Source: Chloroflexota bacterium
GTDB lineage: Bacteria; Chloroflexota; FW602-bin22; JACPRP01
Reading direction: 5' to 3'
NCBI GenBank assembly: GCA_016210495.1
Contig: JACQUC010000250.1
Span: 1 to 24,854 of the forward strand
Length of the DNA stretch: 24,854 nt
Positions 6,311 through 24,854 of the stretch are shown piece after piece. The notes under the pieces are model-generated. The model saw only the letters and a program-made list of their open reading frames with translations, was not told the origin of the DNA and made no database searches. Positions within the stretch are counted from its first letter, which is position 1, and every line of letters begins with the position of its first letter. The translations under genes and the position numbers were made by a program.

Positions 6311-6316
6311 GCGTTC

Positions 6317-8288: not shown

Positions 8289-8356
8289 TTCATTGGATGC
8301 TTTGGTTGTAGCAAGGAGGTCGCTAATTCTACTGCCTGCGCAGTTTGGGAGGCTCT

Positions 8357-9346
8357 ATGCTTCCGCACAGCCCGATCTTCGTGGATAATGCTGTAACCCT
8401 TGCCCGGCGGCTGAAGCTCTTTCTTGCCCTTTCTAGAACCTTACAAGCGACGTTGAGCATTGCTCAGCCTGGCTTAGGCGCGGTGCTAGCCGTCGGCGCA
8501 ATCCCCCCCGCGGACAAAACGGTGGTGGGTGTGATAGCCGCCTGGGCGGGGCTTCACGCCGTCTTTGCCATGAACGATCTGTTGGACGTCGAGTTTGACA
8601 GGAGGCGGTTTCAACGTGTCCGCACATATCAAGGCTTCGATATCGATGCCGCGATTGTCAGGCATCCGCTTGCCCTCGGATACATCAGTCCTACCTCAGC
8701 AGTCCTGTGGATTGCATTCCTCACCACGATTGCTCTGGTCGCGGCTTTCTGGCTAAGTCCGATCTCAGCGGCCCTATTTGTGTCATCAGTCATCCTAGAG
8801 TGGGGGTACTGCAAGCTAGCTAAGGTTTCGCCCTGGAAGTTCTTACCCACCGGCTTGATGATAGGCTTTGGGAGTCTGGCCGGCTGGTTTGCTGTGAGCA
8901 ACGAAGTAAACCTAACCCTGGTTGTATTCTTCCTGTGGATGGCTGCGTGGGAAATCGGCGGTAGAAACATCGTGAATGATTGGTCGGATATCGAGGAGGA
9001 TATTTATCTGGGCATCAAGACCGTGCCCGCAACGTTCGGTGTTGGGTCAGCAGGAAAGCTAGCGTTTGTAGGCATTGTGCTAACGTTCCTTCTTAGCCTC
9101 GCGCTCGCCTTCACAGCCAACCTCAGTTGGTTGTATCTGGTGGGAGCAATGGTCGCGGGAGTGTACATGCTTCTGGTTCCAGGATTGAGGCTGCTTCGCG
9201 AGCCTGATCGAATTGAGCTTGCTCCAATTCTGTTCAATCGAGCCAGTCTTTACCCAGCAGCAATGCTGGCGATAGTGGTTGTGAGCATATACGTTCCACA
9301 TGTCGTAGACTGGGTGACGAGCTGGGTATATGTTCCAGTGCGATAA
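8357..9346 (+). CDS. UbiA-family prenyltransferase
   Basis: An integral membrane enzyme that transfers a prenyl chain onto an aromatic or related acceptor, as in quinone, heme or archaeal-type lipid synthesis. At 329 aa it has about nine hydrophobic helices. Both Mg-diphosphate-binding Asp motifs are present: NDLLDVEFD (N73, D74, D77, D81) and NDWSDIEED (D208, D211, D215). I take the ATG at 8357, with GGGAGG four bases upstream (tight spacing); a TTG twelve bases earlier is possible. It lies just before the quinone-linked electron-transfer operon, so menaquinone synthesis is tempting, but no other quinone genes are present. The acceptor cannot be told from the sequence. Confidence 0.85.
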   Translation: MLPHSPIFVDNAVTLARRLKLFLALSRTLQATLSIAQPGLGAVLAVGAIPPADKTVVGVIAAWAGLHAVFAMNDLLDVEFDRRRFQRVRTYQGFDIDAAIVRHPLALGYISPTSAVLWIAFLTTIALVAAFWLSPISAALFVSSVILEWGYCKLAKVSPWKFLPTGLMIGFGSLAGWFAVSNEVNLTLVVFFLWMAAWEIGGRNIVNDWSDIEEDIYLGIKTVPATFGVGSAGKLAFVGIVLTFLLSLALAFTANLSWLYLVGAMVAGVYMLLVPGLRLLREPDRIELAPILFNRASLYPAAMLAIVVVSIYVPHVVDWVTSWVYVPVR

Positions 9347-9389
9347 GCGGCCGTAGTAGAGAGAGGCCGTTTAGAAAGGATCTGCCAGG

Positions 9390-9457: not shown

Positions 9458-9795
9458 GAGGCGTTCACCGCCACCTGTGCGATCCCCGTTGGAGACGGCC
9501 TGGCCGCCGAAGCCCTTGCTCGCGTCGGAACGAACATCGTGGCTTTTGTCGGCGACCCGGAAAACGTGGGCGCCGGCTCCGACATGCTCATAGCGAGCTC
9601 GCTACCTTGTCTAGTCTTATGAAGGGCGGCGCCCACATCGGAGCGATCCACGCCACGGCGGAGGCAATGGGCGCCCTGCTCCACAGTCACCACGGTTTGG
9701 CCTGCCGCCTGCTGATGCCAACCGTGGTAAAGAACAACCTCTTTGCGGCGCCCACCGCTACGAGCGGGTAGCCGCGCTGCTGGCAGAGAACACGT
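9458..9795 (+). pseudogene. Decayed fragment of an iron-containing alcohol dehydrogenase
   Basis: Read in three frames in turn, this stretch matches the middle of the intact dehydrogenase at 309-1475. From 9458: EAFTATCAIP, then AFVGDPENVGAGSDMLIASS, aligning with EAYLTAAANP and TFVGNPGDLRAAADMLVASG; it ends at TGA 9620-9622. From 9619 in a second frame: GGAHIGAIHATAEAMGALLH and SHHGLACRLLMP, keeping the equivalents of the metal-binding histidines. From 9753 in a third frame: HRYERVAALLAENT, like the family's RYERVAELL helix. The N-terminal NAD-binding half and the C-terminus are missing. The divergence shows it is not a recent copy of the 309 gene. Confidence 0.75.
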
Positions 9796-9840
9796 TCCGG
9801 ATCGTAGTGTTTACATCCCTCGAATAGGTGGCTAGCGCCG

Positions 9841-12800
9841 ATGAGGTTTGTCACTAAGCTCTTGAAAATGAATCTCGACCTGGTCTCCGTCAACGTGGAG
9901 CGGGACCAACTGCTGATGCGTGGCCGGTCCGGCAGCCTCGACGGCGAAGTGTATCTGCGGCCGAAAGAGGTGATCGACCTCGTAAGGCTGGGCCTCAACG
10001 CGCCTACCATCGTCTTCGTCATCTTCTTCCCATTCTACTACCTGGTAGATTACTTGCGTCAAAACGCTGGCGACCAACGCCAGGCAATCTTCTCGATTGG
10101 CAGAGTGGCCTCACTGGCGTTGGCGGCAGTTCTACTGCTCGGCGCGTTCCCCTACTTCGCTCGCCACCCCTTACAGAGCGCCATCCTGCTCGCGGCGTTT
10201 GCCGTCCTGTTCCTGGCCACCTTTGCCACCAGCCAAATCGCGGCGCTGTTTTACGCCTTTGTCATTCTCGGCCTGTCCAGCTACTACCTTGCCGCCAGCC
10301 ACCTGGGGGTGGACGGTCACCTGTATGGGGTACTGGCTGTTCCGGTATCTATCATCACGTACTTCGCGGCGAAGTGTTTTGACGTTCCCGAACGCGCACA
10401 CCTCAGCCGGCTGCTTAACAACTCCACCTACGTGATCTCTCTCTTCTTCGGCGGATACGTGGCTGTGGGCGCTCCTTTCTATGTGTCAGCGGCCCCCTGG
10501 GAAGCCGCCCTGCCTTTGCTGGCCTTTTCAGCGCTGTACTTTGCCAGATACCGCGCCAACCGCACCATACGGCACCAGTACCTGGGCCTGATCTTTCTCG
10601 CCTCGGGCTACGTCTTTTTGCTGTACGCGTTGACGCCGTTGCCTCAAGCCTACTACGGCCCGGCGCTGGGCGCGCTCGGGATACTCTTGGCCATTGCAGG
10701 TGGCTTCCTTCGCCGCGCATCGAGCTTGACGCACGTCGCTCCCCTCTGGGTGGCGGCCGTGGGCTTACCCATCTTCGGGATCCCATACGGCTTCTTCGAC
10801 CAGACGGCCCTCCTGATCTCGCTTTCATTGGTCGCGGTCTGTACTTACCTTGTCAGCCGAACGGCACACGCAAACAAGCCCGGGACTTATGAACCCGAAT
10901 GGTGGTTCTCGGCCGTTCCCTTCGGCATCGCCAATGCGGTCGCGTTGGCAATCGCCTTCGCGCTCTTCGAGCTTGGATCGCCGTCCTTTGGCGCCACGGC
11001 CAGCGCGCTCGGTCTGGCGATTCTGTACTATCAGATCGCAGTAGACAGGGAGCCGTTCGCTCTGAGGAGCAGAAACGTCTACCTGCACGTCGCAGCTTTC
11101 TTTCTGGCTATGTTCTCCCTGCTGGCCCTGATCGCGCTGGACCCCTTCAAGCAGATACCGATCAACGCCTCGCTTATGCTGGTGCCATTAGCCGGCGTCC
11201 TGGTGCTGGCACGTTCCATAGAGCAGAAAGGAGAGCGGAGTGGCGCCCTGCAAAAGGCCACGTCGCTCTACGAGGGCAGCTACCTGGTTATGACGGCGGC
11301 CCTGGCCTGGCCGATCCTCTCAGGGGGCCATTCGGTCCCCGTGTCTTCCTTCGTGGCCATCGGCTTCCTGGTGCTCTATTTCGGGTTCATGAGTTTCAGC
11401 CGCAACGAGGGGCTGCTCTATTCGCCGGTGATCGTCGGCGCCTACCTGTACTACAACGTTCTGACCGGTGTAAGCGCACCTGCGCCGCTCGTAAGCGCCG
11501 CATATGCCGGCCTGGGCCTGGTGGCGATGGTCGTCGCCCTCACCTTCGCCCGACCTCAAAGGCCGCCCGGCAAGATGCTGTACTTCACCTGGTTCCTGTT
11601 CACCGGCCTGTCGATCCTGCCGGTGGCCCGCGATGCCATGCTCGCTGACTTCGCGCTCACCCTGTGCGCCGTGAGCTACCTGGTCGGCGCGAGATTCATC
11701 CCCGAGGCCGCGGGCGGCCGCCCGTTCCACCGCAATCCCACCGGAGGATTGCGCAACTTGACGGAGCTGATGGGCACCGTGGCCGCTCTCGCGTCACTCT
11801 TGCTCTTGCTGGTTCATCAGTCACTCTCGGGGGCAGTGGTCGTCACGGCCGCGCTGGCCGTGGCCTACGTCGTGGCCTTCCTCCGCTCCAGGGATCACGT
11901 TTACCTTTATCCTGGAAGCATCCTTCTGTCGTCGGCTTACCTGCTATCGCTCAAGCCCATCGCCACTTACGATAACGGGCTTCTCTTTATGCTGCCGCTG
12001 CTACTGCCGCTCTATGGTCTGGGCCATTACCTGTGGGCCAAACAGCAAGGCCACTTAGCCGTACCGCTGATGCTCGCGGGACATCTCGCCGCATTGGCGG
12101 CTATCGGGCTAGTCGTCTATTACCAGAACCTCGTGACGATGCCTGCTCTGGTGGTGGTCTCTTTGCTGCTGTACGCGGCTATCGCACTGGCCCTGGCGCG
12201 CACCGAGCGCGAGCCGTGGCAACTGCTGCCCGCGCTCATCTTTCCAGCGTTTGCGCTGTACTTTGCTACCACAGGCATCGGCGCGCTGGAAACCCGCCTC
12301 GCCGCGCTGGCCCCGCTGGGGATCGTGTACGCCGGCCTGGCCGGCCTCGTCAGGAAGAAGATAGATGCCTGGCTGGCTCGGCCCATCTTCACGGCGGCCG
12401 TGCTGGTGGCCCTGGCGGTCAGCGCCGCGACGTTCATCTCGGGCGGGACTCAGGAGGCCCAACTGGCGACCGTCGCCAGCGCCGCAGCCTACGTACTGGT
12501 TCACATCCTGCTGGCCCGGCACGAGTTCGTGTACCTCGTCGTCCTGTCGTTGGGCCTGCTGGCTTACCACTTGTTGCTGGCCTCGGTGGATTCCTTCTCC
12601 CGTGACCTCATCCAGTACTTCGCGGTCGGGCTAATCCTGTGCGGCGTGATCTTCCTGGTGCCCCCCGCTCTCCAGGCGGTGGGCTACCGCAAGCCAATAT
12701 GGACGCTGTTGGTCGATAATCAGGGATGGGCCTTCGTTCTTTCGTTGCCGATATTCATCGCCGTGCCCCTGGTGATCGCGCAGTACACCGTCACCGCCTC

Positions 12801-13530
12801 CGCCAACCCAACCTTCTGCGCCGGTTGCCACTCCATGAAGAGCTACTACGAAACGTGGCAGAAATCGGGACACGTACAGAAGGCCAGCCCCCCCGTCGCC
12901 TGCGACACCTGCCACTACCCGCCCGGCGGCCCCGAGGTGCTGCTTACTGGCAGAGTCACCGGACTGATGATGACGGTCGGCGAGATGGCCGGCCTCCAGC
13001 CCAGCAAGTTCCACGGGCGCGTGCTGGACGCCAACTGTCTTCAGCCGGGATGCCATACCAAAGAGAAGCTCACCAACTGGCTGGTCTTCAAGGGCGTCAA
13101 ATTCAACCACTCTACAATGATAGACCAGCGCGTCCGCGACATCGACCTCAACTGCACATCTTGCCACGCTCGAATCAAAGAGAACGCCGAGCGCCACTTT
13201 GAGGTGTCGGAGACCGTCTGCTACTACTGCCACCTCATGGGCCGGACGAACGAGCGGGGTACGGCCGTGGGCACCTGCGCCACCTGCCACGACGCCGCCG
13301 TCGAAACCAGGGCCACTTCCCAGTTCTTTACCCTTGGCGGCACGGCCGCCGGCGCGGTCGAAAGATCGCGCTGCCTTTCGTGCCACGCCACGACCAGCCA
13401 GGCCGACGACGCTAATCTGATGCACGACGCCCATGTCACGCGCATGAAGGTGTTCGGGGGGCGCAAGGTAGAGTGTTTCGAGTGCCATTCGGAGGTTAGG
13501 CATGGAAATCTTCCAGGGAGTAGGAAGTAG
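9841..13530 (+). CDS. Giant polytopic membrane protein fused to a NapC/NirT-like multiheme cytochrome c domain
   Basis: 1229 aa in three parts. Residues 1-50 form a small soluble domain. Residues about 54-985 hold roughly 33-34 hydrophobic stretches by eye, with no domain I recognise. The last helix (about 965-987) leads into FCAGCHSMKSYYETWQKSGH, the signature of NapC/NirT/NrfH quinol-oxidising cytochromes, where Met after CxxCH is a usual heme ligand. Heme motifs: CAGCH 993, CDTCH 1021, CLQPGCH 1066 (a CX4CH variant), CTSCH 1105, CYYCH 1127, CATCH 1146, CLSCH 1178, CFECH 1212. This suggests eight c-hemes on the outer face. The ribosome binding site AGGTGG is nine bases upstream. It opens the electron-transfer operon and overlaps the next gene by 29 bp. 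Likely role: quinone-linked electron entry or exit; the giant membrane part is unexplained. Confidence 0.85.
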   Translation: MRFVTKLLKMNLDLVSVNVERDQLLMRGRSGSLDGEVYLRPKEVIDLVRLGLNAPTIVFVIFFPFYYLVDYLRQNAGDQRQAIFSIGRVASLALAAVLLLGAFPYFARHPLQSAILLAAFAVLFLATFATSQIAALFYAFVILGLSSYYLAASHLGVDGHLYGVLAVPVSIITYFAAKCFDVPERAHLSRLLNNSTYVISLFFGGYVAVGAPFYVSAAPWEAALPLLAFSALYFARYRANRTIRHQYLGLIFLASGYVFLLYALTPLPQAYYGPALGALGILLAIAGGFLRRASSLTHVAPLWVAAVGLPIFGIPYGFFDQTALLISLSLVAVCTYLVSRTAHANKPGTYEPEWWFSAVPFGIANAVALAIAFALFELGSPSFGATASALGLAILYYQIAVDREPFALRSRNVYLHVAAFFLAMFSLLALIALDPFKQIPINASLMLVPLAGVLVLARSIEQKGERSGALQKATSLYEGSYLVMTAALAWPILSGGHSVPVSSFVAIGFLVLYFGFMSFSRNEGLLYSPVIVGAYLYYNVLTGVSAPAPLVSAAYAGLGLVAMVVALTFARPQRPPGKMLYFTWFLFTGLSILPVARDAMLADFALTLCAVSYLVGARFIPEAAGGRPFHRNPTGGLRNLTELMGTVAALASLLLLLVHQSLSGAVVVTAALAVAYVVAFLRSRDHVYLYPGSILLSSAYLLSLKPIATYDNGLLFMLPLLLPLYGLGHYLWAKQQGHLAVPLMLAGHLAALAAIGLVVYYQNLVTMPALVVVSLLLYAAIALALARTEREPWQLLPALIFPAFALYFATTGIGALETRLAALAPLGIVYAGLAGLVRKKIDAWLARPIFTAAVLVALAVSAATFISGGTQEAQLATVASAAAYVLVHILLARHEFVYLVVLSLGLLAYHLLLASVDSFSRDLIQYFAVGLILCGVIFLVPPALQAVGYRKPIWTLLVDNQGWAFVLSLPIFIAVPLVIAQYTVTASANPTFCAGCHSMKSYYETWQKSGHVQKASPPVACDTCHYPPGGPEVLLTGRVTGLMMTVGEMAGLQPSKFHGRVLDANCLQPGCHTKEKLTNWLVFKGVKFNHSTMIDQRVRDIDLNCTSCHARIKENAERHFEVSETVCYYCHLMGRTNERGTAVGTCATCHDAAVETRATSQFFTLGGTAAGAVERSRCLSCHATTSQADDANLMHDAHVTRMKVFGGRKVECFECHSEVRHGNLPGSRK

Positions 13531-15379
13531 GGAGCAGGGAATTAGCGGAGAGTTGGAGCCTATTACAGTGTCTCAGTACGGCGCGACGGTCCTGGGCGTT
13601 GGAGACCTGATCGGCGGTGCCCCGTGTCGGCAGGCGTGCCCGGTCAACACCGACGCGGGACTGTATGCCTCCCTCGTTGGCCGGGGACACTTCTCCGGCG
13701 CCTTCGACGTTGCCAGACGGCCTAACCCGTTGGTTCACATCTGCGCGCGCGTTTGCGGCCGGCCCTGCGAGTTGGCCTGCCGAAGGGGCCGCCTCGATTC
13801 GCCCGTGTCCATCAGGGCCCTCAAACGATTTGTCACCGATTTCGCGCGCGAGCTGCCAGCCCCGCTGACTCTTGCCCCGATGCATCAGGGACAGCCGGCG
13901 GAGCGCCTCGGGCCAACTCCGGGAAACGACGGCTCGCGGGGCGACGCCCCGAAAGTGGCCATCGTCGGATCCGGCCCGGCCGGCTTGTCGGCTGCTCACG
14001 GCCTCGCTCGCGCTGGCCACAAAGTAACGATCTTTGAGGCGCTGCCCTTGCCGGGGGGAATGCTCAGATATGGCATACCGGAGCATCGGCTGCCCAGACG
14101 AATCCTGGGCCAGGAACTCGAGCCGATCTGGGAAGCGGGCGTCGAACTGAAGACGGATTGCTCGCTGGGCAAAGACTTCTCGCTGGATGACCTGCGCGAG
14201 GACGGTTACCGGGCCATTCTCTTGGCCATAGGCGCCCAGCAGGGCAACGCCCTGGGAATCGAAGGGGAGAATCTCTACGGTGTGGTAAGCGCGCTGGACT
14301 TCCTGAAAGGGGTGGCGCAGGGATCGCGGTCGGCGACGGGCCAGAAGGTGGTCGTGGTCGGGGGCGGCTTCACGGCCCTTGACGCGGCCCGGACGGCACG
14401 AAGAGTCGGAGCTGCCGAAGTGTGCGTGGTCTACCGGCGGTCCAGAGAGCAGATGCCGGCCGACCCGGAAGAGGTGGGGCACGCCGGGGAAGAGGGGATT
14501 GCGTTCTCATTACAGGCCGCGCCAGTGTGCATCGAACGGGGCGACGACGGCTGTCTCTGCCTTCGTTGCGTGCGGACACAGGCGGCGGGCTTGGGGCCGC
14601 AGCACCGGGCGATGCCCGTGGCCGTTCCCGATTCGGAGTTCGCCATCCTTGCCAACCTCGTGATCCTGGCCACCGGGCAAAGGCCGGACCTGAGTGGCCT
14701 GGACGAACGGATAAGAGTATCCCAGGCGGGCACCATCGAGGTCGACCCCGAAACGCTCGCCACCACTGCTGCCGGCATCTTTGCCGCTGGCGATGCCGCC
14801 TTCGGGCCACGGCTCGTCATCCACGCGATCGCCGATGGCCTCAGGGCCGCCACGGTTATCGAGCGATACCTTGCCGGCGCTGAGGTCGAGAGCCGCGCAA
14901 GCTCTCGATTGACGTACGTTGCCACCCCCGTTTCGCCCAGCGCTGTGGGACGTGTGCCGAGGCACAGCGTGCCTGCGCTCTCGCCCAGCCAGCGCCACGG
15001 CCACGAGGAAGTGGAACTTGGCTACGACGCCAGGCTGGCCACCGCCGAGGGACGTCGCTGCCTCCAGTGTTTCGCGCACACCGTCTTCGAGGCCAGCCGG
15101 TGCATCCTGTGTGGTGCCTGTGTAGATGTCTGCCCCTCCGGTTGCTTGAAAATCGTCAGCGCGGAGCGGTTGATCGGTCACGACGAGCGCAGCGTTGGCG
15201 TTTTGGAGAGGCGGCGCGCCGAGGCCCATCGCGCGGCCGGTGGGTCACGCGCCACCATCCCGCCTGGCGTTGCCATCATCAAGGACGAGGAGCGCTGCAC
15301 CCGCTGTGGCCTGTGCGCACAGCGGTGCCCCACCGAAGCCATTCACCTGGTATCTGTTCGGTGGAAGGAGGCAGTTTGA
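13502..15379 (+). CDS. GltD-like FAD/NAD(P)H oxidoreductase with extra [4Fe-4S] clusters
   Basis: A cytoplasmic flavoprotein of 625 aa that should move electrons between NAD(P)H and iron-sulfur carriers. Order: N-terminal cluster-binding helical domain with C42/C46 and C81, C85, C89, C93; FAD fold GSGPAG (156-161); NAD(P) fold GGGFTA (287-292) followed by YRRSR (311-315), which suggests NADPH; ATGQRPD (390-396) and GIFAAGDA (425-432). The C-terminal two-cluster ferredoxin has C534, C537, C540, C544 and C599, C602, C605, C609. GGAGG lies six bases before the ATG. The gene starts inside the end of the preceding one, and its first 20 codons come from a purine-rich repeat. It is followed immediately by the Rieske gene, which suggests coupling to the cytochrome b complex. 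Confidence 0.9.
   Translation: MEIFQGVGSREQGISGELEPITVSQYGATVLGVGDLIGGAPCRQACPVNTDAGLYASLVGRGHFSGAFDVARRPNPLVHICARVCGRPCELACRRGRLDSPVSIRALKRFVTDFARELPAPLTLAPMHQGQPAERLGPTPGNDGSRGDAPKVAIVGSGPAGLSAAHGLARAGHKVTIFEALPLPGGMLRYGIPEHRLPRRILGQELEPIWEAGVELKTDCSLGKDFSLDDLREDGYRAILLAIGAQQGNALGIEGENLYGVVSALDFLKGVAQGSRSATGQKVVVVGGGFTALDAARTARRVGAAEVCVVYRRSREQMPADPEEVGHAGEEGIAFSLQAAPVCIERGDDGCLCLRCVRTQAAGLGPQHRAMPVAVPDSEFAILANLVILATGQRPDLSGLDERIRVSQAGTIEVDPETLATTAAGIFAAGDAAFGPRLVIHAIADGLRAATVIERYLAGAEVESRASSRLTYVATPVSPSAVGRVPRHSVPALSPSQRHGHEEVELGYDARLATAEGRRCLQCFAHTVFEASRCILCGACVDVCPSGCLKIVSAERLIGHDERSVGVLERRRAEAHRAAGGSRATIPPGVAIIKDEERCTRCGLCAQRCPTEAIHLVSVRWKEAV
13516..13540. repeat. Purine-rich tandem repeat at a gene junction
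   Basis: Imperfect units GGGAGTA, GGAAGTA, GGGAGCA and GGGA follow each other. They encode both the C-terminal residues of the heme protein (stop at 13528-13530) and the N-terminus of the oxidoreductase. Similar GGGAGTA arrays occur in intergenic DNA of some bacteria. Confidence 0.5.
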
Positions 15380-15380
15380 G

Positions 15381-15872
15381 ATGGAGTCCGGAGAACGAGG
15401 CTGGATACAACTCAACTCGACGGCCATTTCTCGTCGCAAGTTCCTGGGCTTGGTCGGCTTGGCTGGCATAGTGGGGTCGATGGGGATTGCCACGCTGGCT
15501 ACCGTCCGATCTCTCGTGCCAAACGTTCTCTACGAGCCCTCCACCAGGTTTCGGGCAGGCAAGCTACAGGATTTCACTTTGGGCTCTATCACGTTCATTA
15601 AGGAGAAAAAGGTTTACATCCAGCGTGACGAAAAGGGCTTGTTCGCCATGTCGGCCATCTGCACCCACCTAGGCTGCACCGTCCCGTGGCTCGAGGCCAA
15701 CGGGCACTTCGAGTGCCCCTGCCACGGCGGCAAGTACCATCGCGATGGCCACAATTTCGCCGGGCCTCCACCGCGCCCTCTCGACCGCCTGAAGATCGAA
15801 CTTGATGCGATTGGTCGGGTGACGGTGGACACGGCGAAGGTAGTCGACGGAGAGTACCGGCTGAACGTCTAG
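15381..15872 (+). CDS. Rieske [2Fe-2S] protein with Tat signal
   Basis: The high-potential iron-sulfur subunit of a cytochrome bc-type complex, 163 aa. The N-terminus carries a twin-arginine signal/anchor SRRKFLG (residues 17-23) followed by a hydrophobic helix. Cluster ligands are C94 and H96 in CTHLGC and C112 and H115 in CPCHGG; C99 and C114 provide the disulfide. Start ATG at 15381, with AAGGAGG nine bases before it, two bases after the previous stop. A longer frame from 15195 lies inside the upstream gene and is not used. It is paired with the cytochrome b gene 17 bp downstream. Function: electron transfer from quinol to periplasmic cytochrome c, or the reverse if the complex runs backward. 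Confidence 0.95.
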
Positions 15873-15889
15873 CGAGGTATCCCGGATCT

Positions 15890-17212
15890 ATGGAGACTAT
15901 GGAGCGGCTAACGGAGATAGTGACGCGGTCGCGCTTCTGGACCTCTTTTTTCCGGCACGGCTGGCCGGATAACGAGGTCAGTCGGGCGCTGGTCGTGACC
16001 AGCAACGTCTTCATGCACCTTCATCCGGTGCGGGTGCGGCGCCACGGCCTGCGTTTCTCCTACACGCTGGGACTCGGCGGGCTCGGCTTCCTGCTGTTCC
16101 TTATCCTGTCAGTGACCGGTGGGCTGCTGATGTTCTACTACGTGCCAGCCACCAGCCAGGCCTACGACAACATGCAGGACTTGCAGTTCGCCGTATCTTA
16201 CGGCCGGCTCTGGCGGAACCTGCACCGTTGGGCGGCCCACCTGATGGTTGTGTCTGTGTCCCTCCACATGTGTCGCGTTTTCTACACCGCCGCCTACAAG
16301 CCGCCCCGGGAGTTCAACTGGGTGCTGGGAGTCAGCCTGTTCGTCTTGACGTTAGCCTTCAGCTTCACCGGATACCTCTTGCCCTGGGACCAACTGGCGT
16401 TTTGGGCGATCACCGTGGGTACGAATATCGGCCGGGCCATGCCGTTGATAGGGGAACAGCTTCGCTTTCTACTGCTCGGTGGAAACGTCGTGGGCCAAAA
16501 CGCGCTGTTGCGATTCTATGCGCTGCACGTGTTCGTCCTGCCGTCGATAGCCTTGTTTGTCATGATCGTGCACTTCTGGCGAGTCCGCAAAGATGGAGGG
16601 ATCTCGGGACCGCCTGCGGCCACCGCGCCCTCCCCAGTGCCCCCCACTGTGCCCGGCGATGGAAAGATGTCCGCGTCTGTGGCAAGCGCCGAAGCGTCCT
16701 TCGGCCCGAATCCCCATAAGACCTACCAGTTGCTCGCTTTGCCGGACGGTATGACCCTGCTCCTGGACAAGCAACCCGAGGACACCGAAATGACCTTCCC
16801 GCACCTGCTAGTGCGAGAGCTGACGTACGCCCTGGCGGCCACGGCGCTGCTCATCGGCGTGGCTTTCGCGATCGATGCGCCCCTGGAGGAACTGGCCAAT
16901 CCCACCAAGACTCCCAACCCGGCCAAGGCTCCCTGGTATTTTCTGGGGCTTCAGGAGATGGTCTCCTGGGGCAATCCCTTCTGGGGCGGCGTGCTTGCCC
17001 CAGGCCTGATGCTGGTGGCGCTGCTTCTGCTTCCATACTTTGACCGCACTCCGGAAGGGGTAGGAGTCTGGTTCTCGCGCCACCGAAAGTGGCCGGTCAT
17101 AGTCTTCACCGCCTGGGTCGTGGCCATGGCCGGCCTCATCGTCATAGGCTATTTCTTCCGCGGACCCGGTTGGCAGTGGTACTGGCCGTGGATGGGGACA
17201 CCGGTCCATTAG
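15890..17212 (+). CDS. Cytochrome b (b6/subunit IV-type, single chain)
   Basis: The quinone-binding di-heme core of the Rieske/cytochrome b complex, 440 aa. Heme ligands: H112 and H126 in the second helix (14 apart) and H213 and H228 in the fourth helix (15 apart), the spacing seen in b6-type proteins. A Pro/Ala/Ser-rich loop (about 238-275) joins the b6-like half to the subunit IV-like half, which has [15 protein letters not shown] (343-356), the PEWY-equivalent quinol-site motif in a PxWY form. The cysteine that tethers heme ci in cytochrome b6 aligns with glycine here, so that heme is probably absent. It lies between the Rieske gene and a four-heme cytochrome that would replace cytochrome f or c1. 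Confidence 0.93.
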
Positions 17213-17249
17213 GGAGTTCACACTTGCTGACAGATTGGTGGGCAACTGA

Positions 17250-18077
17250 ATGGTGATCAGGCTATTGGCGCTGAGCTGTCTGGCCCTTCTGGGCACTCTA
17301 TCTCTGTGGGTATGGCGGGAGTCGAATCCCGAACACGCCCATGTTCTGGTTTCGCGGGCAGCTACCGCCAGAGAGATGGAGTCGCTGCGGCGAGAGGGGC
17401 TCGGCGTCCGCCAGATAGTGATCGACAGGCTGGGCCTCGTCGACCGCTGCGTTACGTGCCACATCAACGTCGAGGACCCCGCCTTCGCCGACGCCAACCT
17501 GCCCTTCCGATTCCATCCGGGCCTGGACAAGCATCCGCCGGACACGTTCGGTTGCACCCTCTGCCACGGGGGCGATGGGCGAGCCACGACGCTGAGCGCC
17601 GCCCACGGCGAGATTAGGCTCTGGAATGACCCGATGCTGCGGGGTGAGTACATCCAGGCTGCCTGCGGGAGATGCCACCAGGAGCAATATGTCGAGGGCG
17701 CGCCTCTGCTCTCGGCGGGGCGGCGGCTGTTCGATCACTATGGGTGCCTTGGCTGCCACAAGCTTTACAGCGCGGGGGGCAAAGCCGGCCCGGACCTCAC
17801 CGCCGTCGGGGCCAAGCATCCGACCGACCTCGTTTGGGGGAACTATCGGGGAGAAAGGTCGCTGGCCATCTGGTTCTTTCGCCATTTCAAGGACCCGCAA
17901 CTCTTGCTCCCCAAGTCCAGCATGACCGACTTCTTTATGTCCGATTACAACGCCAAGGCGCTGACAGTTTACATGCTTAGTCTCACCGAGGAGAGGTTTC
18001 CGCCGGAGTACTATCCTCGGAGGAAAGCGGGCGAGGGTCGCGGTGACAGCGGCCCGCGGTCCAGGAGGAACGAATGA
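17250..18077 (+). CDS. Membrane-anchored four-heme cytochrome c
   Basis: 275 aa with one N-terminal helix (about 3-22) that probably anchors it on the outer face of the membrane. Heme motifs: CVTCH 67, CTLCH 102, CGRCH 139 and CLGCH 166. The last is part of a class I cytochrome c domain (GRRLFDHYGCLGCHKLY, then a possible Met ligand at M225 in PKSSM). By position just after cytochrome b it probably serves as the c1/f-like partner of the Rieske protein, with three extra hemes passing electrons onward. The stop overlaps the next start as ATGA (18074-18077), so the two are translationally coupled. The ribosome binding site is weak. Confidence 0.9.
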   Translation: MVIRLLALSCLALLGTLSLWVWRESNPEHAHVLVSRAATAREMESLRREGLGVRQIVIDRLGLVDRCVTCHINVEDPAFADANLPFRFHPGLDKHPPDTFGCTLCHGGDGRATTLSAAHGEIRLWNDPMLRGEYIQAACGRCHQEQYVEGAPLLSAGRRLFDHYGCLGCHKLYSAGGKAGPDLTAVGAKHPTDLVWGNYRGERSLAIWFFRHFKDPQLLLPKSSMTDFFMSDYNAKALTVYMLSLTEERFPPEYYPRRKAGEGRGDSGPRSRRNE

Positions 18078-20422
18078 GCCAGCAGATTCAGAAGGGAATA
18101 GCCATGGCCCTGGCCGGCCTGGGGGCATTCACACTGGTGTTGGTTGCCTCGGCGTGCCAGGCCACAACTCCCGTCGCGAGCGACGCCAGGCCAGTGGATG
18201 CCCCGGCGCGGTCAGGGGGAGCCGCTCCCAGGGTGGAAAAGCCGGTCGCCCAGGCCGTTCCCACGCCGACCAGAACGCCCTTACAGATAGTCTCTCGTAG
18301 GGCAAGCTATGACCGCGTCAGCCCCGAAGTGGCGCGAGAAAAGGGTTGCCTGTCGTGCCACGATGGCATCGAGGACATTAATCCCAAGATGACCGCCGCA
18401 TGGGGCGCCGACCGGAAGTGCGAGGTGTGCCACAAGGGCCAGCCGCAGGCCACCACTAAAGATGAGGCCCACCGCGGCATGTACGCCAACCCCGGCGATC
18501 TGCGCGTCGTCTCGGAGACGTGCGGCCAGTGCCACGACGACGCCGGCGTCATACGACGCGATGTGGAGGGACTTATACCGGGCGTGGTCAGGCAATCGCG
18601 CGTTGTCTCTGCCGGGGAGCGGAACCACGTACCCAGGGTGCTCAGGTCGCTGATGGCCACCGCCGCTGGCGAGATCGCCGCCACCAGATTCCTCTGGGGT
18701 GCCCAGGACTCCATCGGCCCTCTCTTCGCCACCAGACCTATCTCGGCCATCAACACGATCTCGCCTACCGTTGCCATTGGTGACAGGCGCCAGGGCGTGG
18801 AAACCTCGCGCTTACAGGCAACCCTAACCACCCCCTTCCTGCAACAGCTACCGCCGGCCAACTACTCCGACGCCGATAACCTGCTCCGCAACTTCTGCCT
18901 CAAGTGCCATCTCTGGACCGAAGGCGAGCCGAAACCGGGCCTCCACCGCTCCAGCGGCTGCTCTGCCTGCCACGTCATCTACGAGGACGACGGCCTCTCC
19001 AAATCGGGCGATGCCACTATCCCCAAGAACGCCCCGTCTCACCCGGCCAAACACCAGATCACCGCCAAAGTCCCCACCGCCCAGTGCCTCCGCTGCCACA
19101 ATGATGGTGGCGGCCGCCTCGGCCTCAACTTCGTTGGCCTCATCCCCGCGCATGCCTCTGCCACACCCCTCCAACCTGATGGCTCGCCCCAGGCACCCAA
19201 GTTTGGCATCAACACCCTCCCTGTCAGACCCGATGTCCACTTTGAGAAAGGCATGCACTGCATCGACTGCCATACCTCCAAGGAACTGCACGGGGACGGT
19301 AATCTATATGCCCGCAAGGAAAACGAGGTAAGAATCTCCTGCGAGACCTGCCACGGCACGACGACGTCGCCCCCAACCCTGGCCGACAACCAGGGCGAGC
19401 CGCTCAAGAACCTCTACCGCAGCGGGGCCGAGGTCGTCCTGGTCGGCAAGATTGACGGCCAGCGACACTTTGTCACCCAACTGGACAAGGTTGCGCGGCG
19501 GGGCTCCCTCCCGCTGGCGATGCGTATCCCGGCCCACGTGCAGGAGCCTGGGACGAGCCCCCGGCTCAGGCTGGAGTGCTCTGCCTGCCACTCACGCAGC
19601 ACGCCCCAGTGTTTCGGCTGTCATCTCAAGCGGGACGACCGGCAGATGGCGCCGGTGGACTGGGTAGCCGGCATCGGCGAAGGGGTTGAGCCCAAGCCCT
19701 CCCAGGGTTTATGGTCGGGCGAGCTCATTTACACCCGCTGGGAAGATCCGCCGCTGGGGGTGAACTCGAGGGGCCGGGTATCGCCCTTTGTGCCGGGCGG
19801 GCAGGTATTGTTCAGCCGGATTGGGCCGAATGGTGAGGTTCTGTCGCTCAACCAGGCGCTGGAGATTGGCGCGGGCTCAGGTGGCAAGGCGCTGGCCTTT
19901 GCGATGAATCCTATCTCGCCGCACGCGACGACGAAGCAGGCGCGGAGTTGTGAATCCTGCCACAGCAATCCCAGGGCGCTGGGGCTGGGGTCCGAGGTAC
20001 CGCTGATGCGGGAGCGGGGCTGGAACGTCGATCTGCCTTTCGACCGCATGGTCGACGAGGAGGGAAGGCCGACGCAACTGACCACGCACGAACGAGCGCG
20101 ACCCTTCGACAAGGCGGAACTGGAACGGATAGATCGGACGAGCGACTGCATGAGCTGTCACAAGGATATGGACAACGCGCAGATCTGGGAACAGGTGGTT
20201 AGGAGGACGGGCCAGGCGAAGACGCCGCGCGACCATCAGGACATCATCAACTGGATATTCAAGGGTGGCGCGTTGAACGGCCCGCCTGCACCTTCTCCGG
20301 CCAGCACGATCCGGCCCGGGCCCGCGTCTGGTCCGGGACCGGCCACCATCACTTCGCCGACGACGATTGACGCTGCTCCAAGGACAGTGCCGCCGACGCC
20401 GGGCCCGCAGCAACTGAGGTAG
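18074..20422 (+). CDS. Twelve-heme lipoprotein cytochrome c
   Basis: 782 aa. The signal peptide ends in LVASAC, giving lipidated C28, then a Pro/Ala/Thr-rich linker. Twelve CxxCH motifs at residues 92, 116, 150, 275, 296, 338, 396, 423, 502, 513, 626 and 692. The C-terminus is a Pro/Thr/Ala-rich tail (about 724-782). I do not recognise a named family; the gaps between motifs do not look like a decaheme MtrA or an octaheme HAO. It is coupled to the four-heme cytochrome by a 4-bp overlap and lies four bases before the molybdenum enzyme. It probably conducts electrons between the bc-type complex and that enzyme. Residues about 177-508 are nearly identical in DNA to the second copy at 23368. Confidence 0.9.
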   Translation: MSQQIQKGIAMALAGLGAFTLVLVASACQATTPVASDARPVDAPARSGGAAPRVEKPVAQAVPTPTRTPLQIVSRRASYDRVSPEVAREKGCLSCHDGIEDINPKMTAAWGADRKCEVCHKGQPQATTKDEAHRGMYANPGDLRVVSETCGQCHDDAGVIRRDVEGLIPGVVRQSRVVSAGERNHVPRVLRSLMATAAGEIAATRFLWGAQDSIGPLFATRPISAINTISPTVAIGDRRQGVETSRLQATLTTPFLQQLPPANYSDADNLLRNFCLKCHLWTEGEPKPGLHRSSGCSACHVIYEDDGLSKSGDATIPKNAPSHPAKHQITAKVPTAQCLRCHNDGGGRLGLNFVGLIPAHASATPLQPDGSPQAPKFGINTLPVRPDVHFEKGMHCIDCHTSKELHGDGNLYARKENEVRISCETCHGTTTSPPTLADNQGEPLKNLYRSGAEVVLVGKIDGQRHFVTQLDKVARRGSLPLAMRIPAHVQEPGTSPRLRLECSACHSRSTPQCFGCHLKRDDRQMAPVDWVAGIGEGVEPKPSQGLWSGELIYTRWEDPPLGVNSRGRVSPFVPGGQVLFSRIGPNGEVLSLNQALEIGAGSGGKALAFAMNPISPHATTKQARSCESCHSNPRALGLGSEVPLMRERGWNVDLPFDRMVDEEGRPTQLTTHERARPFDKAELERIDRTSDCMSCHKDMDNAQIWEQVVRRTGQAKTPRDHQDIINWIFKGGALNGPPAPSPASTIRPGPASGPGPATITSPTTIDAAPRTVPPTPGPQQLR
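18602..19596 (+). repeat. Homogenised block shared by the two large cytochromes, copy A
   Basis: Aligns with 23860-24854 at a constant offset of 5258 bp, with no indels over 995 bp and about 60 mismatches by hand count (about 94% identity). The last roughly 90 bp are identical. Similarity falls sharply just upstream of 18602, although both genes continue in homologous frame. Copy B runs off the window, so the downstream limit is unknown. Confidence 0.9.
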
Positions 20423-20425
20423 TGT

Positions 20426-22783
20426 ATGAAGGCGAGACTTTCCAGACGCCAGTTCATCAAGGCCACGCTGGGAGCGGCGGCGCTCTTCGGCGGGATGGGA
20501 CGCCGGGCCGATTTGACGGCCGCTGAGTCGACGCTACGGGCCGGCGGCGAGCAGATCGTGAAGAGCCACTGCCCGTTATGCCACTGGGGCTGTGGCCTGG
20601 ACATCCTGGTCAGAGACGGCGCCATCGTGCAGGTCGAAGGAATGCCTGAGGACCAGGAGAGTCGGGGGGCCCTCTGCGCCCGCGGCAACGACGTGAAGAG
20701 CTTCGTCTACGACGCCGACCGGGTGCGGTACCCGCTGCTGCGCGTGGGCGACAAGGGCCAGGGACAGTTCCAACGCATCTCCTGGGAGCAAGTCATCGAT
20801 GTCATCGTGGACCGCTGGAGCGCCATTATCCGCGAATCGGGGCCGGAATCCATCGCCGGCTACATCGGCAGCGGCGGAGGCGTGGAGCGGTACTGGCTTA
20901 TGCCCCGACTCTTCAATTGCCTGGGCAGCCCCAACGTGTTCGCTTCGACAGTCGATGGCCAGTCGTCGTGGGCCTGGGGTGGTAAGATCGTCACGGGGGC
21001 CTTTCCCCTGCGCAGCGTCGAGCATCTGGATAGGACGCGCTGCTTCGTCATCTGGGGCGCCAATCCGGCGTCATCGGCGGGCCCCTTCGAGCCACCGCGC
21101 ATCTTCGACCAGCAGAGTCGAGGCGCCAGGTTGATCGTCGTCGACCCACGCTTCACGCCGCTGGCCAACGGCGCCGACGAGTGGGCGCCTATCAAGCCAG
21201 GGACGGATGGTCTTCTGGCATGGTCGCTGGCGCAGGTCATCATCTCTGAGCGGCTGCTGGACCGAGCCTTCGTCGAAGAATGGACCGAGCAGTTTAACGG
21301 CTACCAGGAGATCGCCTTGAGACCGGCCTACTCGCCGGAAAACGTCGCCGAAACCTGCGGCGTGTCTGCAGACCAGATTCGACGCATCGCGCGGCTCTAC
21401 GCCATCAACGCGCCGGCCTTGATTGTAGGTGGCCGGGGCATCGACCATCACTCGAACGGCCTTCAGGCCAGCGCGGCCATCCACTCGCTCGCTGCCCTCA
21501 CCGGCAACGTCAACAGGCCCGGCGGCAATACCTACTTTTCCTATCCGGTCGAGCCGCTCAAGGGGGTGCCCGCGCTGGATTACAGAATCGCCAACTCTCC
21601 CGGCGCGGCAAAAGGCCCAGTCACGCTCCCCACCGGGCTGGCCGACCCCAACCGACTGTGGGACCTCATCCTGGCCGGAGGCAGCGACGCGCTCTGGCGG
21701 CAGTCAGTCTTCGTTGCCCCGCCCATGAGTAAGGTGGCGCCAGCGTACGGATTCCAGCGCGCCTACCCCGGCAGCTATCAGGGCAAAGCGTATCCCATCA
21801 GGTCGCTGCTCGTTCAGGGAGGGAACCCCTTGATAGGCTTGCCGGAGGAGATGAAGGGCCGTGCGGCATTGCAGAAGCTGGAGTTTCTGGTGGCGACCGA
21901 CTGCTACGTTAACCAGACGGGCGCCTATGCCGACGTCATCCTGCCGGCAGCCCCCAGCCCCGAGTCCATCGGCCTTACCGGCGGGTCCTTCCCGTTCGGC
22001 AAGCAATACGTGGGCCTTCTGGAGCAAGCCATCCCGCCGCTGGGCGAAAGCCGATCAGACATCGACATCATTCGCAACCTGGGCTGGGCGATGGGGTACC
22101 GGCGCGAATTCAATTTTTCCGATGCCGAGTTCATCGACCTGCTGCTGTCCGCCTCGCCCCTTACGGCTCGATTGAGCCTCGACAGGCTCAAAGCCTTGCC
22201 GAGCCGGAAGATACCGCTGTTTCAAGGTGAGGACTATTTCCCTCTGCCGTACTCGAGCGAGAGATTCGCCACTCGCTCCGGCAAAGCAGTGTTTTTCAGC
22301 GCGACTGTTCCTGTCGATCCGGACCTGGCCCCCATACCCGGCTGGTCGCCACCGGTCGAGGGCCCCGACGAAACGCCCACGTTGTGGGAGAAGTATCCCC
22401 TGGTGCTGGCCGGCGGAAACGTCCCGGTCCGCTCCGGGTCCTGGACCCGAAATCTGATGTATGCGGGCGAGCTCGATCCCGATTCCTGGGCCGAGATGAA
22501 CCCGGTCGACGCCGCCAGCCTTGGGATTCGGGAAGGTGATCGAGCCTGGATCGAGTCGAAGGCCGGCAAAGCGCTCTTCAAAGTGCGCGTCACCGAGGCG
22601 CTGAGGCCGGGCGTGGTCTGGGTCGTAAGCCGCGGGGCGCCCACCAAAGGCACTTCCTGGAGCCGGGCCAGACCATCGCCAAACGCGAATGCGCTGGTGG
22701 AGGGTGCCTTCAACGATTTGAAGTCCGGACCAGCACGGTTCAAGGAGATGCTGGTGAGAGCAGTGAAGGAGCCGTCGACGTAG
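20426..22783 (+). CDS. Tat-exported molybdopterin oxidoreductase (DMSO reductase/CISM family)
   Basis: The catalytic subunit, 785 aa, with bis-MGD molybdenum or tungsten. The Tat signal SRRQFIK is at residues 6-12. The [4Fe-4S] site is C49-x2-C52-x3-C56-x27-C84. The region where formate dehydrogenases carry Cys/Sec reads NVFASTVDGQSSWAWGGK (170-187), with no Cys; D177 or one of S174, S180 or S181 is the likely metal ligand (inference). The C-terminal cofactor-binding domain starts near residue 655 (YPLVLAGGNVPVRSGSWTRN). It is followed by a four-cluster FeS subunit and flanked on both sides by twelve-heme cytochromes. No membrane NrfD/PsrC-type subunit is seen. The substrate is unknown; it may be an oxyanion, sulfur or organic compound. 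Confidence 0.9.
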   Translation: MKARLSRRQFIKATLGAAALFGGMGRRADLTAAESTLRAGGEQIVKSHCPLCHWGCGLDILVRDGAIVQVEGMPEDQESRGALCARGNDVKSFVYDADRVRYPLLRVGDKGQGQFQRISWEQVIDVIVDRWSAIIRESGPESIAGYIGSGGGVERYWLMPRLFNCLGSPNVFASTVDGQSSWAWGGKIVTGAFPLRSVEHLDRTRCFVIWGANPASSAGPFEPPRIFDQQSRGARLIVVDPRFTPLANGADEWAPIKPGTDGLLAWSLAQVIISERLLDRAFVEEWTEQFNGYQEIALRPAYSPENVAETCGVSADQIRRIARLYAINAPALIVGGRGIDHHSNGLQASAAIHSLAALTGNVNRPGGNTYFSYPVEPLKGVPALDYRIANSPGAAKGPVTLPTGLADPNRLWDLILAGGSDALWRQSVFVAPPMSKVAPAYGFQRAYPGSYQGKAYPIRSLLVQGGNPLIGLPEEMKGRAALQKLEFLVATDCYVNQTGAYADVILPAAPSPESIGLTGGSFPFGKQYVGLLEQAIPPLGESRSDIDIIRNLGWAMGYRREFNFSDAEFIDLLLSASPLTARLSLDRLKALPSRKIPLFQGEDYFPLPYSSERFATRSGKAVFFSATVPVDPDLAPIPGWSPPVEGPDETPTLWEKYPLVLAGGNVPVRSGSWTRNLMYAGELDPDSWAEMNPVDAASLGIREGDRAWIESKAGKALFKVRVTEALRPGVVWVVSRGAPTKGTSWSRARPSPNANALVEGAFNDLKSGPARFKEMLVRAVKEPST

Positions 22784-22838
22784 GCGCGCAAGGAGAGCCG
22801 AGCGGGGCAGTCTCTACATTTCAACTAAAGGAGCGTAC

Positions 22839-23390
22839 ATGCAAGTAGCGTTCTTCTTCGACCAGTCCAGGTGTCTTGCCTGCCTCTCCTGCGAGGTCGT
22901 TTGCAAGCAGTTGCACGACATTCCGGTTGGGCCGCGGTGGCGGAAGGTCTACGAGCGCGTCGTCGGCACGTTTCCGAACGTGGGACGATACTCGCTGTCG
23001 CTGTCCTGCAACCACTGCGAGAGCCCGCCGTGCATACCGGCTTGTCGTCAGGGCGCGATCTTCAAGCGTGCCCAGGATGGCATCGTCCTGATCGACGCGG
23101 CCCGGTGTGATGGCTGCCAGGAGTGCATCGATGCCTGTCCCTACCGGGCGCTGGTGGTCGCTCCCGACGGCGGCATCCAGAAGTGCACCGCCTGCGTCGA
23201 GCGGGTTACTCGTGGCCAGGCCCCCGGCTGCGTGCAGACGTGTCCCGGGAGGGCGCTGCACTTTGGGTCGTTGCCTGAGATGGCTGGCAGACGTGGTGCA
23301 GAGCGAGTGGTCGGCAACTCACAACCCGCCCTATTCCTACGGTCCAGCGAGCTTGAGCTAGCAAACTATGAACTTGTGGCTTCACGGTAG
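22839..23390 (+). CDS. Four-cluster [4Fe-4S] electron-transfer subunit (DmsB/PsrB/NrfC-like)
   Basis: 183 aa. Sixteen cysteines in four groups: C12, C15, C18, C22; C57, C60, C65, C69; C90, C93, C96, C100; C116, C119, C131, C135. This is the full pattern of DMSO-reductase-family beta subunits. It has no signal of its own and is probably exported by riding with the Tat-borne molybdenum subunit encoded 55 bp upstream. The ribosome binding site AAAGGAG lies six bases before ATG. Its last 23 bp overlap the start of the second large cytochrome, suggesting electrons pass from this subunit to multiheme cytochromes rather than to a membrane quinol subunit. Confidence 0.93.
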   Translation: MQVAFFFDQSRCLACLSCEVVCKQLHDIPVGPRWRKVYERVVGTFPNVGRYSLSLSCNHCESPPCIPACRQGAIFKRAQDGIVLIDAARCDGCQECIDACPYRALVVAPDGGIQKCTACVERVTRGQAPGCVQTCPGRALHFGSLPEMAGRRGAERVVGNSQPALFLRSSELELANYELVASR

Positions 23391-24854
23391 CATCCGACGA
23401 GTCCAAAACGCCGTTCAGAATACCACCCGAAGGCGGGGCCTGTGGGAACTTGGGGCCGGCGGGCTGATCCTGGCCGTGGTCGCGCTGACGGTTATGTCAG
23501 GGACTTCGGGACAGGTTCAAGACCGGACCGGTGCCACGAAACCCGCGGCCGCTGCCCGGGAAGATCGGACCCCATCCACTGGGTTGGCGGAAGCTTCGCT
23601 TCGCCCGGCGAAACCCAGCGTCTGGGTGTCACGCGAACTGGCGGAAGCCAAGGGGTGTCTCTCGTGTCACGACGGCATAGAAGACATCAACCCCAAGATG
23701 ACCGAGGCCGGCGCGACTTGTGTCACCTGCCACCGGGGCAACCCATTGGCCACCAACGACGCGGAGGCCCACCAGGGGATGTTCGCCAACCCCGGCGACC
23801 TGCGGGTGGTCGAGCAAACCTGCGGGCAGTGCCACAGCAATAAGGGTAGCATTTCCCAGGTTGTCTCCGCCGGGGAGCGGAACCACGTGCCCAGGGTGCT
23901 CAGGTCGCTGATGGCCACCGCCGCTGGCGAGATCGCCGCCACCAGATTCCTCTGGGGCGCCCAGAACTCCCTCACCCCTCTCTTCGCCACCAGACCTATC
24001 TCGGCCATCAACACGATCTCGCCTACCGCTGCCGTTGGTGACAGGCGCCAGAGCGTGGAAACCTCGCCCCTACAGGCATCCGTCACCACCCTCTCCCTCC
24101 AACAGCTACCCCCGGCCAACTACTCCGACGCCGATAACCTGCTGCGCAACTTCTGCCTCAAGTGCCACCTCTGGACCAAAGGCGAACCAAAACCCGGCCT
24201 CCACCGCTCCAGCGGGTGCTCCGCCTGCCACGTCATCTACGACGACGACGGCCTCTCCAAATCGGGGGATCCCACTATCCCCAAGAACGCCCCCTCTCAC
24301 CCGGCGAAACACCAGATCACCGCCAAAGTCCCCACCGCCCAGTGCCTCCGCTGCCACAACGATGGCGGCGGCCGCATCGGCCTCAACTTCGTCGGCCTCA
24401 TCCCCGCCCATTCCTCTGCCACACCCCTCCAACCTGATGGCTCGCCCCAGGCACCCAAGTTCGGCATCAACACCCTCCCCGTCAGATCCGATGTCCACTT
24501 CGAGAAAGGGATGCATTGCATCGACTGCCATATCTCCAAGGAACTGCACGGAGACGGTAATCTATATGCCCGCAAGGAAAACGAGGTCAGAATCTCCTGC
24601 GAGACCTGCCACGGCACGGCCACCTCGCCCCCAACCCTGGCCGACAACCAGGGCCAGCCCCTCAAGAACCTGTACCGCAGCGGCGCCGAGGTCGTCCTCG
24701 TCGGCAAGATCGACGGCCAGCGACACTTCGTCACCCAACTGGATAAGGTCGCGCGGCGGGGCTCTCTCCCGCTGGCGATGCGTATCCCGGCCCACGTGCA
24801 GGAGCCTGGGACGAGCCCCCGGCTCAGGCTGGAGTGCTCTGCCTGCCACTCACG
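23368..24854 (+). CDS. Second large multiheme cytochrome c, partial (runs off the window)
   Basis: An open frame from ATG 23368 continues without a stop to the window end (495 codons seen). Nine CxxCH motifs are present: CLSCH, CVTCH, CGQCH, CLKCH, CSACH, CLRCH, CIDCH, CETCH and CSACH, in the same order as the 18074 protein, so twelve are expected in full. Unlike that lipoprotein it begins with a basic stretch (TTRRRG) and one hydrophobic helix (LGAGGLILAVVALTVMSG) without a lipobox, so it is probably membrane-anchored or secreted. The N-terminal 165 residues are only moderately similar to the paralog; from codon 165 the DNA is nearly the same. The ribosome binding site is weak, and the start overlaps the ferredoxin gene by 23 bp. 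Confidence 0.9.
   Translation, partial: MNLWLHGSIRRVQNAVQNTTRRRGLWELGAGGLILAVVALTVMSGTSGQVQDRTGATKPAAAAREDRTPSTGLAEASLRPAKPSVWVSRELAEAKGCLSCHDGIEDINPKMTEAGATCVTCHRGNPLATNDAEAHQGMFANPGDLRVVEQTCGQCHSNKGSISQVVSAGERNHVPRVLRSLMATAAGEIAATRFLWGAQNSLTPLFATRPISAINTISPTAAVGDRRQSVETSPLQASVTTLSLQQLPPANYSDADNLLRNFCLKCHLWTKGEPKPGLHRSSGCSACHVIYDDDGLSKSGDPTIPKNAPSHPAKHQITAKVPTAQCLRCHNDGGGRIGLNFVGLIPAHSSATPLQPDGSPQAPKFGINTLPVRSDVHFEKGMHCIDCHISKELHGDGNLYARKENEVRISCETCHGTATSPPTLADNQGQPLKNLYRSGAEVVLVGKIDGQRHFVTQLDKVARRGSLPLAMRIPAHVQEPGTSPRLRLECSACHS
23860..24854 (+). repeat. Homogenised block shared by the two large cytochromes, copy B
   Basis: Counterpart of 18602-19596, without indels. The left edge is abrupt, where copy A carries extra codons after its third heme motif that copy B lacks. 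The block continues to the window edge. Confidence 0.9.

Follow-up and report, generated by a model that had tools for sequence, protein, structure and literature searches.

Complexes that join a Rieske protein and a cytochrome b to an NAD(P) oxidoreductase have been described from the anammox bacterium Kuenenia, which encodes two of them (Kustd1480-1485 and Kuste4569-4574), with Rieske potentials of +303 and +335 mV (PMC12954380). That study supports the proposal that these complexes bifurcate quinol electrons and so form NAD(P)H, and it predicts a new heme b that would lie next to the flavoprotein, between the cytochromes b, at His43 or His62; its authors see the loss of electrons to menaquinone in the region of heme cN as the larger problem that the model faces. 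Two other systems resemble them in part: the Geobacter extHIJKLMNOPQS genes, which specify a 12-heme cytochrome (ExtM), a Rieske protein (ExtO), a cytochrome b (ExtP) and a membrane protein (ExtQ) (PMC5877670, PMC2825233), and the nitrate reductase clusters of haloarchaea that include Rieske/cytochrome b genes, for which antimycin A inhibition is described (PMC4683180). Here we compare these systems with a row of nine genes from a Chloroflexota bacterium (assembly GCA_016210495.1, contig JACQUC010000250.1, positions 1 to 24,854). This stretch of 24,854 nucleotides, called the window below, appears to make up one whole metagenome contig. The row may encode a variant of the anammox-type NAD(P)-linked Rieske/cytochrome b complex that has a molybdenum (Mo) end enzyme and bifurcates electrons to NAD(P)+, a reading that we prefer but hold tentatively, at somewhat less than an even chance.

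The row occupies 9841-24854 and consists of nine tightly packed forward genes, each supported both by an open reading frame (ORF) and by family scans. Spacing between them, in the direction of transcription, is -29, 1, 17, 37, -4, 3, 55 and -23 bases, so that three genes overlap the one before. A sequence-only reading of this DNA had described nine consecutive, partly overlapping forward genes forming one operon; the ORFs lie where it placed them, and the row is operon-like in its tight spacing. Its family assignments needed only small corrections, and the giant heme-membrane fusion protein that it reported is indeed there. As for its two 12-heme cytochromes, the first does have 12 motifs; the second is cut off by the end of the contig and shows nine, so that 12 would be an extrapolation. 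Visible heme motifs across the whole row number 33 (8+4+12+9).

Like the Kuenenia complexes, the row contains a Rieske protein, a b6-type cytochrome b, a subunit IV part, an NAD(P) oxidoreductase and the His for the predicted extra heme. In the Kuenenia type a multiheme cytochrome c with 6 or 8 hemes replaces cytochrome f; the window has a multiheme c as the candidate for this role, but one with 4 hemes. The best matches of the window Rieske in the PDB were the Kuenenia Rieskes Kuste4569 (9rk4, 2.9e-31) and Kustd1480 (9rk3, 1.8e-22), which upholds the kinship with anammox clusters noticed in the sequence-only reading. Unlike Kuenenia, the window has b6 and subunit IV fused, lacks the heme cN Cys and the Rieske Ser, and adds ExtM-like 12-heme proteins, an Mo/iron-sulfur (FeS) end module and the membrane-heme fusion. 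Because the heme cN Cys is missing, we class the window as a variant of the anammox-type complex rather than as a strict member.

With Geobacter ext the window shares a 12-heme ExtM-type protein, a Rieske protein and ExtP- and ExtQ-type parts (the first and second parts, respectively, of its cytochrome b in family scans), although the three Ext-type matches fall under the NCBIfam cut-offs (ExtM 278/800, ExtP 283/290, ExtQ 70/150 bits). The visible row, which the window cuts short, shows no counterpart of the Geobacter rhodanese ExtH, ExtKL or the 10-heme ExtN, and the scanned window genes include no porin (ExtI); it exceeds ext in its NAD(P) flavoprotein, Mo/FeS pair and fusion. An extra-membrane Mo reductase-type gene beside a Rieske/b core recalls the haloarchaeal clusters, where the Mo enzyme is NarGH; the passages used from PMC4683180 mention neither an NAD(P) oxidoreductase nor a 12-heme chain. 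In the open-access literature we found no system that unites an NAD(P) oxidoreductase, 12-heme cytochromes and an Mo enzyme with a Rieske/b core and the fusion. What is new is therefore this union, the separate pairings having been published. The claim of a new supercomplex is not supported in that form: the data are at the level of genes, part-sets recur in other genomes, and Mo nitrate reductase with Rieske/b (haloarchaea) and Rieske/b with 12-heme cytochromes (Geobacter) are on record.

Related loci were collected by scanning species-representative genomes with an alignment of 23 ExtM-like proteins, which gave 435 relatives, the best 80 of which were kept. A Rieske and/or cytochrome b gene lay near the 12-heme gene in 11 of these 80 loci (L040, L047, L056, L065, L070-L074, L076 and L079), and at L077 only the partner cytochrome was seen there; because short contigs are common among the 80, absence says little. 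The window cytochrome b was then searched in the 79 genomes behind these loci and matched in 50 at E ≤ 1e-20. The Rieske/b loci analyzed are a chosen subset, mostly of the better matches: 74 stretches were annotated and 71 contained a cytochrome b ORF, the others being L093 (no cytochrome b), L158 (no cytochrome b ORF called, an internal stop reported) and L195 (flank only). Taxa were taken from genome titles, mostly of metagenome-assembled genomes (MAGs) in which binning errors are possible. In one Tectomicrobia MAG (G001) there are five or more loci with Rieske/cytochrome b genes, three of them on C20 and the others on C19 and C22.

A flavoprotein gene was present in 32 of the 71 loci, a lower bound because some of the other 39 are cut by contig ends (e.g., L142, L146), and it adjoined the Rieske or cytochrome b gene in 31 of the 32, the exception (L070) having it several genes away. 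Twenty-four of these loci are in Planctomycetota, Scalindua, Kuenenia, Brocadia or Brocadiaceae genomes; the other eight are in Thermodesulfovibrionales (L070), Tectomicrobia (L079), Abyssobacteria (L130), Nitrospirae (L132), Armatimonadetes (L133), Poribacteria (L136), a Pseudomonadota MAG (L137) and Neomarinimicrobiota (L143). End modules vary. In Planctomycetota they are a 6-heme protein (5 hemes in some) plus an 8-heme protein, or a single large 8-heme protein. In the Nitrospirae MAG a flavoprotein-Rieske-cytochrome b operon leads into NosZ (L132, 8144-20000; TIGR04244, 831 bits, cut-off 625), and L137 begins in the same way before its contig ends. L130 and L136 have a large Mo enzyme and an FeS gene, the best model being type II dimethyl sulfoxide (DMSO) reductase alpha at 324 and 344 of 985 bits, under the cut-off. 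For the Mo enzyme of L133 the best model was formate dehydrogenase alpha (497/666), followed by NasC and NapA, all under cut-off. A Desulfuromonadales locus (L154) combines Mo (best model PhsA, 557/694), FeS, NrfD-like, 12-heme, 10-heme and Rieske/b genes in a stretch that has no flavoprotein gene.

The closest likeness among the loci examined is L079 (contig JACPUC010000024.1), which keeps the window gene order from the fusion through the 12-heme gene. Identities to the window are 40% for the flavoprotein, 34% for the Rieske protein, 56% for cytochrome b, 46% for the 4-heme cytochrome and 53% over 294 amino acids (aa) for the 12-heme cytochrome; the fusion is represented by two ORFs with a 4-base overlap, 25% and 35% identical to the window over parts. 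The L079 contig stops inside the 12-heme gene, and an Mo module could be present or absent beyond it. A gene-order search, suggested with the sequence-only reading, thus matched the order as far as the 12-heme gene, and the full window gene set was found in no other locus examined. The combination that was then not recognized is unmatched as a whole among these loci; parts of it recur in L079, L130, L136, L133 and L154.

Key residues were compared among the 71 loci and the window. The window His43 aligns with Kuenenia hertensis His43 (L167) and His62 (L166). With the window counted, all 33 flavoprotein-linked cytochromes b have a His in this column, as do 24 of the 39 others (20 short and 4 long chains); this His is also present in 120 of the 120 best cytochrome b homologues among the matches listed, again counting the window. 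The heme cN Cys column holds Gly61 in the window, and Gly (118) or Trp (2) in the same 120 homologues. This Cys is found in 55 of the 58 cytochromes b of up to 330 aa and in none of the 14 longer ones. Because the 14 comprise six flavoprotein-linked fused chains and eight others without flavoprotein, some of them distant, its loss tracks the long chain and not the flavoprotein. The Ser before the Rieske Tyr/Phe is present in 32 of 33 flavoprotein-linked Rieskes and in 21 of 36 others, so that the class as a whole looks high-potential.

The gene set, its order, the key residues and the kinship are read from the sequences themselves; that the products of the row would assemble as one complex we infer. 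The fused cytochrome b would oxidize menaquinol at its positive-side site. Of the two electrons, one would pass from the Rieske protein through the 4-heme cytochrome and then the 12-heme cytochromes, ending at the exported Mo/FeS enzyme, and this enzyme would reduce a putative, fairly oxidizing substrate; the other would travel through hemes bP and bN and probably also through a heme that His43 would hold between a pair of cytochromes b, and so reach the flavoprotein in the cytoplasm and NAD(P)+. The fusion would offer a second, NrfH-like route by which electrons of the quinone pool, or those of cytoplasmic donors, could join this heme chain. With the heme cN Cys absent, the quinone-reducing heme that the authors of the Kuenenia model see as its larger problem would be removed. 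The end modules of kin flavoprotein operons suit oxidants: NosZ in L132 and type II DMSO reductase-like Mo enzymes in L130 and L136.

Among solved sequences the Mo enzyme comes nearest to formate dehydrogenase H, other formate dehydrogenases, polysulfide/thiosulfate reductase, acetylene hydratase and Nap. Its predicted fold (predicted local distance difference test score 71.5) places it in the superfamily but fits formate dehydrogenase and Nap alike; fold neighbors include formate dehydrogenases together with nitrate, arsenate and polysulfide reductases. NapA, PhsA and QrcB models scored 123/931, 271/694 and 137/440 bits, under cut-off. The FeS-site cysteines are present, and a CPLCH sequence in the enzyme belongs to that site and not to a heme. 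Assignment as a formate dehydrogenase is not supported by the score of the model (322/666 bits) or by the Cys/SeCys ligand column, which holds what aligns as Gly.

Several observations weigh against bifurcation by a single NAD(P)-linked complex with an Mo end enzyme. His43 and the missing heme cN Cys both occur where there is no flavoprotein nearby; since such relatives share it, His43 is compatible with a bridging role and is not proof of one. The window Rieske (CPCHGGKY) is the sole one of the 33 flavoprotein-linked Rieskes with Gly in place of Ser. Loss of this Ser is cited as lowering the potential by ~130 mV (PMC12954380), and the window sequence suggests a lower value; the driving force for NAD(P)+ reduction is therefore probably lower than that of its kin, which weakens the case for bifurcation in the window complex. 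Mapped onto a tree of 71 cytochrome b rows, the flavoprotein label requires 10 changes, at least six of them forced by well-supported branches, so that the flavoprotein-cytochrome b association is not simply inherited. The fusion accompanies flavoprotein and Rieske/b genes in only one other locus, L079, whose contig ends before any Mo gene. Finally, the listed curated models all stay under cut-off for the Mo enzyme, formate dehydrogenase being the best, and when the enzyme is aligned with 15 relatives, the column of the usual Mo-ligand Cys holds Gly (~residue 177), with Asp beside or before it; this column lies in a short gapped loop, which makes the residue assignment uncertain.

In linear respiration, one alternative, the flavoprotein would oxidize NAD(P)H and electrons would pass via cytochrome b/quinone and the cytochromes to the Mo enzyme or to an extracellular acceptor. 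GltD-like flavoproteins can run in either direction, the absence of the potential-raising Ser fits a menaquinol enzyme that lacks an extreme driving force, and a fusion relative (L210) adjoins NuoE/HdrA-, NuoF- and FlpD-like genes, that is, cytoplasmic electron carriers. Such a path, however, would waste the NADH-to-quinone energy step, as argued for Kuenenia in PMC12954380, and the operon of a relative that ends in NosZ would fit a strong oxidant; we consider this direction unlikely, if a serious contender. The path from NADPH to the Mo enzyme laid out in the sequence-only reading is thus only one direction among several that are possible; the Kuenenia study argues for the reverse, toward NAD(P)+. 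Flow could also start at the other end, with the Mo enzyme acting as a dehydrogenase or the 12-heme proteins importing outside electrons, which would then run through Rieske/b to quinone and NAD(P)+. Formate dehydrogenases among the sequence and fold neighbors, the same best model for the Mo enzyme of L133, and two ExtM-like cytochromes reminiscent of extracellular conduits speak for this; the formate dehydrogenase score is far under its cut-off, the fold neighbors also include reductases, and no porin was seen among the scanned window genes, the window ending inside the row; we rate this reading as distinctly improbable.

The remaining reading is that one transcript serves regulation only and that an Ext-like Rieske/b-cytochrome conduit, the Mo/FeS enzyme and a soluble flavoprotein never form one complex. 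The scarcity of Rieske/b genes at the best 80 loci, many on short contigs, would fit, as would fusions with no Rieske/b nearby (G001:C7 and L210) and the distribution of the Mo enzyme, for which the top matches in 49 genomes have 34-36% identity and reach E ≤ 1e-66 in two genomes only. Against this stand the near-constant adjacency of flavoprotein and Rieske/b genes and the three overlaps in the window, and we regard separate modules as the least probable of the readings. A bifurcating, NAD(P)-linked complex is the one that we tentatively prefer.

Coordinates of the nine row genes and of the prenyltransferase gene upstream are collected below; the Rieske gene probably starts at its first listed position, an ATG.

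Table. Genes of the row and the neighboring prenyltransferase gene in the window
Feature	Coordinates	Strand	Characteristics
Membrane-heme fusion, 1229 aa	9841..13530	+	~25 hydrophobic segments, then NapC/NrfH-like and c7-like domains, 8 heme motifs
GltD/NfnL-like NAD(P) flavoprotein	13502..15379	+	N-terminal Fer4_20, C-terminal ferredoxin-type domain
Rieske [2Fe-2S] protein	15381..15872	+	motifs CTHLGC and CPCHGGKY; start codon inferred
Cytochrome b, fused b6 and subunit IV (ExtP+ExtQ-like)	15890..17212	+	four heme His, extra His43, no heme cN Cys
4-heme cytochrome c	17250..18077	+	N-terminal hydrophobic segment; occupies cytochrome c1/f place
12-heme ExtM-like cytochrome	18074..20422	+	possible lipoprotein signal (by eye)
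Mo/W-bis-pyranopterin guanine dinucleotide oxidoreductase (DMSO reductase superfamily)	20426..22783	+	twin-arginine-like (Tat-like) start RRQFIK (by eye), FeS-site Cys49/52/56/84
DmsB-like polyferredoxin, likely Mo-enzyme partner	22839..23390	+	152 bits, under DmsB cut-off of 214
Second ExtM-like cytochrome, cut by contig end	23368..24854	+	9 heme motifs visible
UbiA-type prenyltransferase, possibly associated	8345..9346	+	53% identical to UbiA upstream of split fusion genes in G001:C7

The fusion protein carries seven CXXCH motifs and one CX4CH, and its first heme domain is NapC/NrfH-like. We read the protein as a putative electron entry from membrane to periplasm. Matches at E ≤ 1e-12 were found in 13 of 79 genomes, mostly to the heme part; the membrane part was mostly covered only in G001 (two loci) and G004, a match in G043 beginning at residue 819, near a contig end. 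Fusion relatives are the split pair in L079, L093, L210 (G004) and L211 (G043), and a protein collection held three further homologues. In L210 (521-11460) the fusion-type membrane cytochrome gene is followed by genes with NuoE/HdrA-, NuoF-, FeS- and FlpD-like domains, and in L211 (2380-10806) by CCG-domain and FeS genes with one family-less ORF between. These neighborhoods possibly link cytoplasmic flavin/FeS modules to periplasmic hemes. As in the window, the split fusion genes of G001:C7 have a UbiA gene upstream.

The two ExtM-like proteins are 86% identical over 426 columns. The middles of their genes (18325-19594 and 23634-24852) are near-identical, reaching 96% nucleotide identity per 60-codon block, and their N-terminal parts differ; the pair reflects partial duplication or gene conversion. 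In an Armatimonadetes MAG (L193, 12098-14656), Rieske/cytochrome b genes have as their neighbor the gene of an 852-aa protein that carries 29 heme motifs.

The genes farther upstream (309-8288) look catabolic, with an Fe-alcohol dehydrogenase, an amidohydrolase, a xanthine dehydrogenase-type large subunit, a RutB-like hydrolase and an SsuA-like binding protein, all matched under curated cut-offs. G+C content at third codon positions is 0.52-0.69 in the upstream genes versus 0.75-0.80 in the nine row genes, with a sharp step at 9346-9841 that possibly marks acquisition or a chimera.

Beyond this locus, NAD(P)-coupled Rieske/b complexes might constitute a general respiratory class in many phyla, with a fixed quinol/NAD(P) core and a plug-in end enzyme, each using a strong oxidant to push menaquinol electrons up to NAD(P)+, a generalization that is conceivable and that we hold as doubtful. 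If it is true, the plug-in end enzymes would include HAO-like proteins, NosZ and several kinds of Mo enzyme, here from an Mo family that stays under the cut-offs of the curated models listed, and the mechanism would take its cleanest form in the fused branch, which would have the bridging heme but lack heme cN. How anaerobes living on weak donors obtain NAD(P)H is an old question, to which bifurcation in anammox bacteria is a proposed answer only. Operons with the same core, no heme cN Cys and assayable end enzymes such as NosZ or Mo enzymes would make that proposal testable outside anammox.

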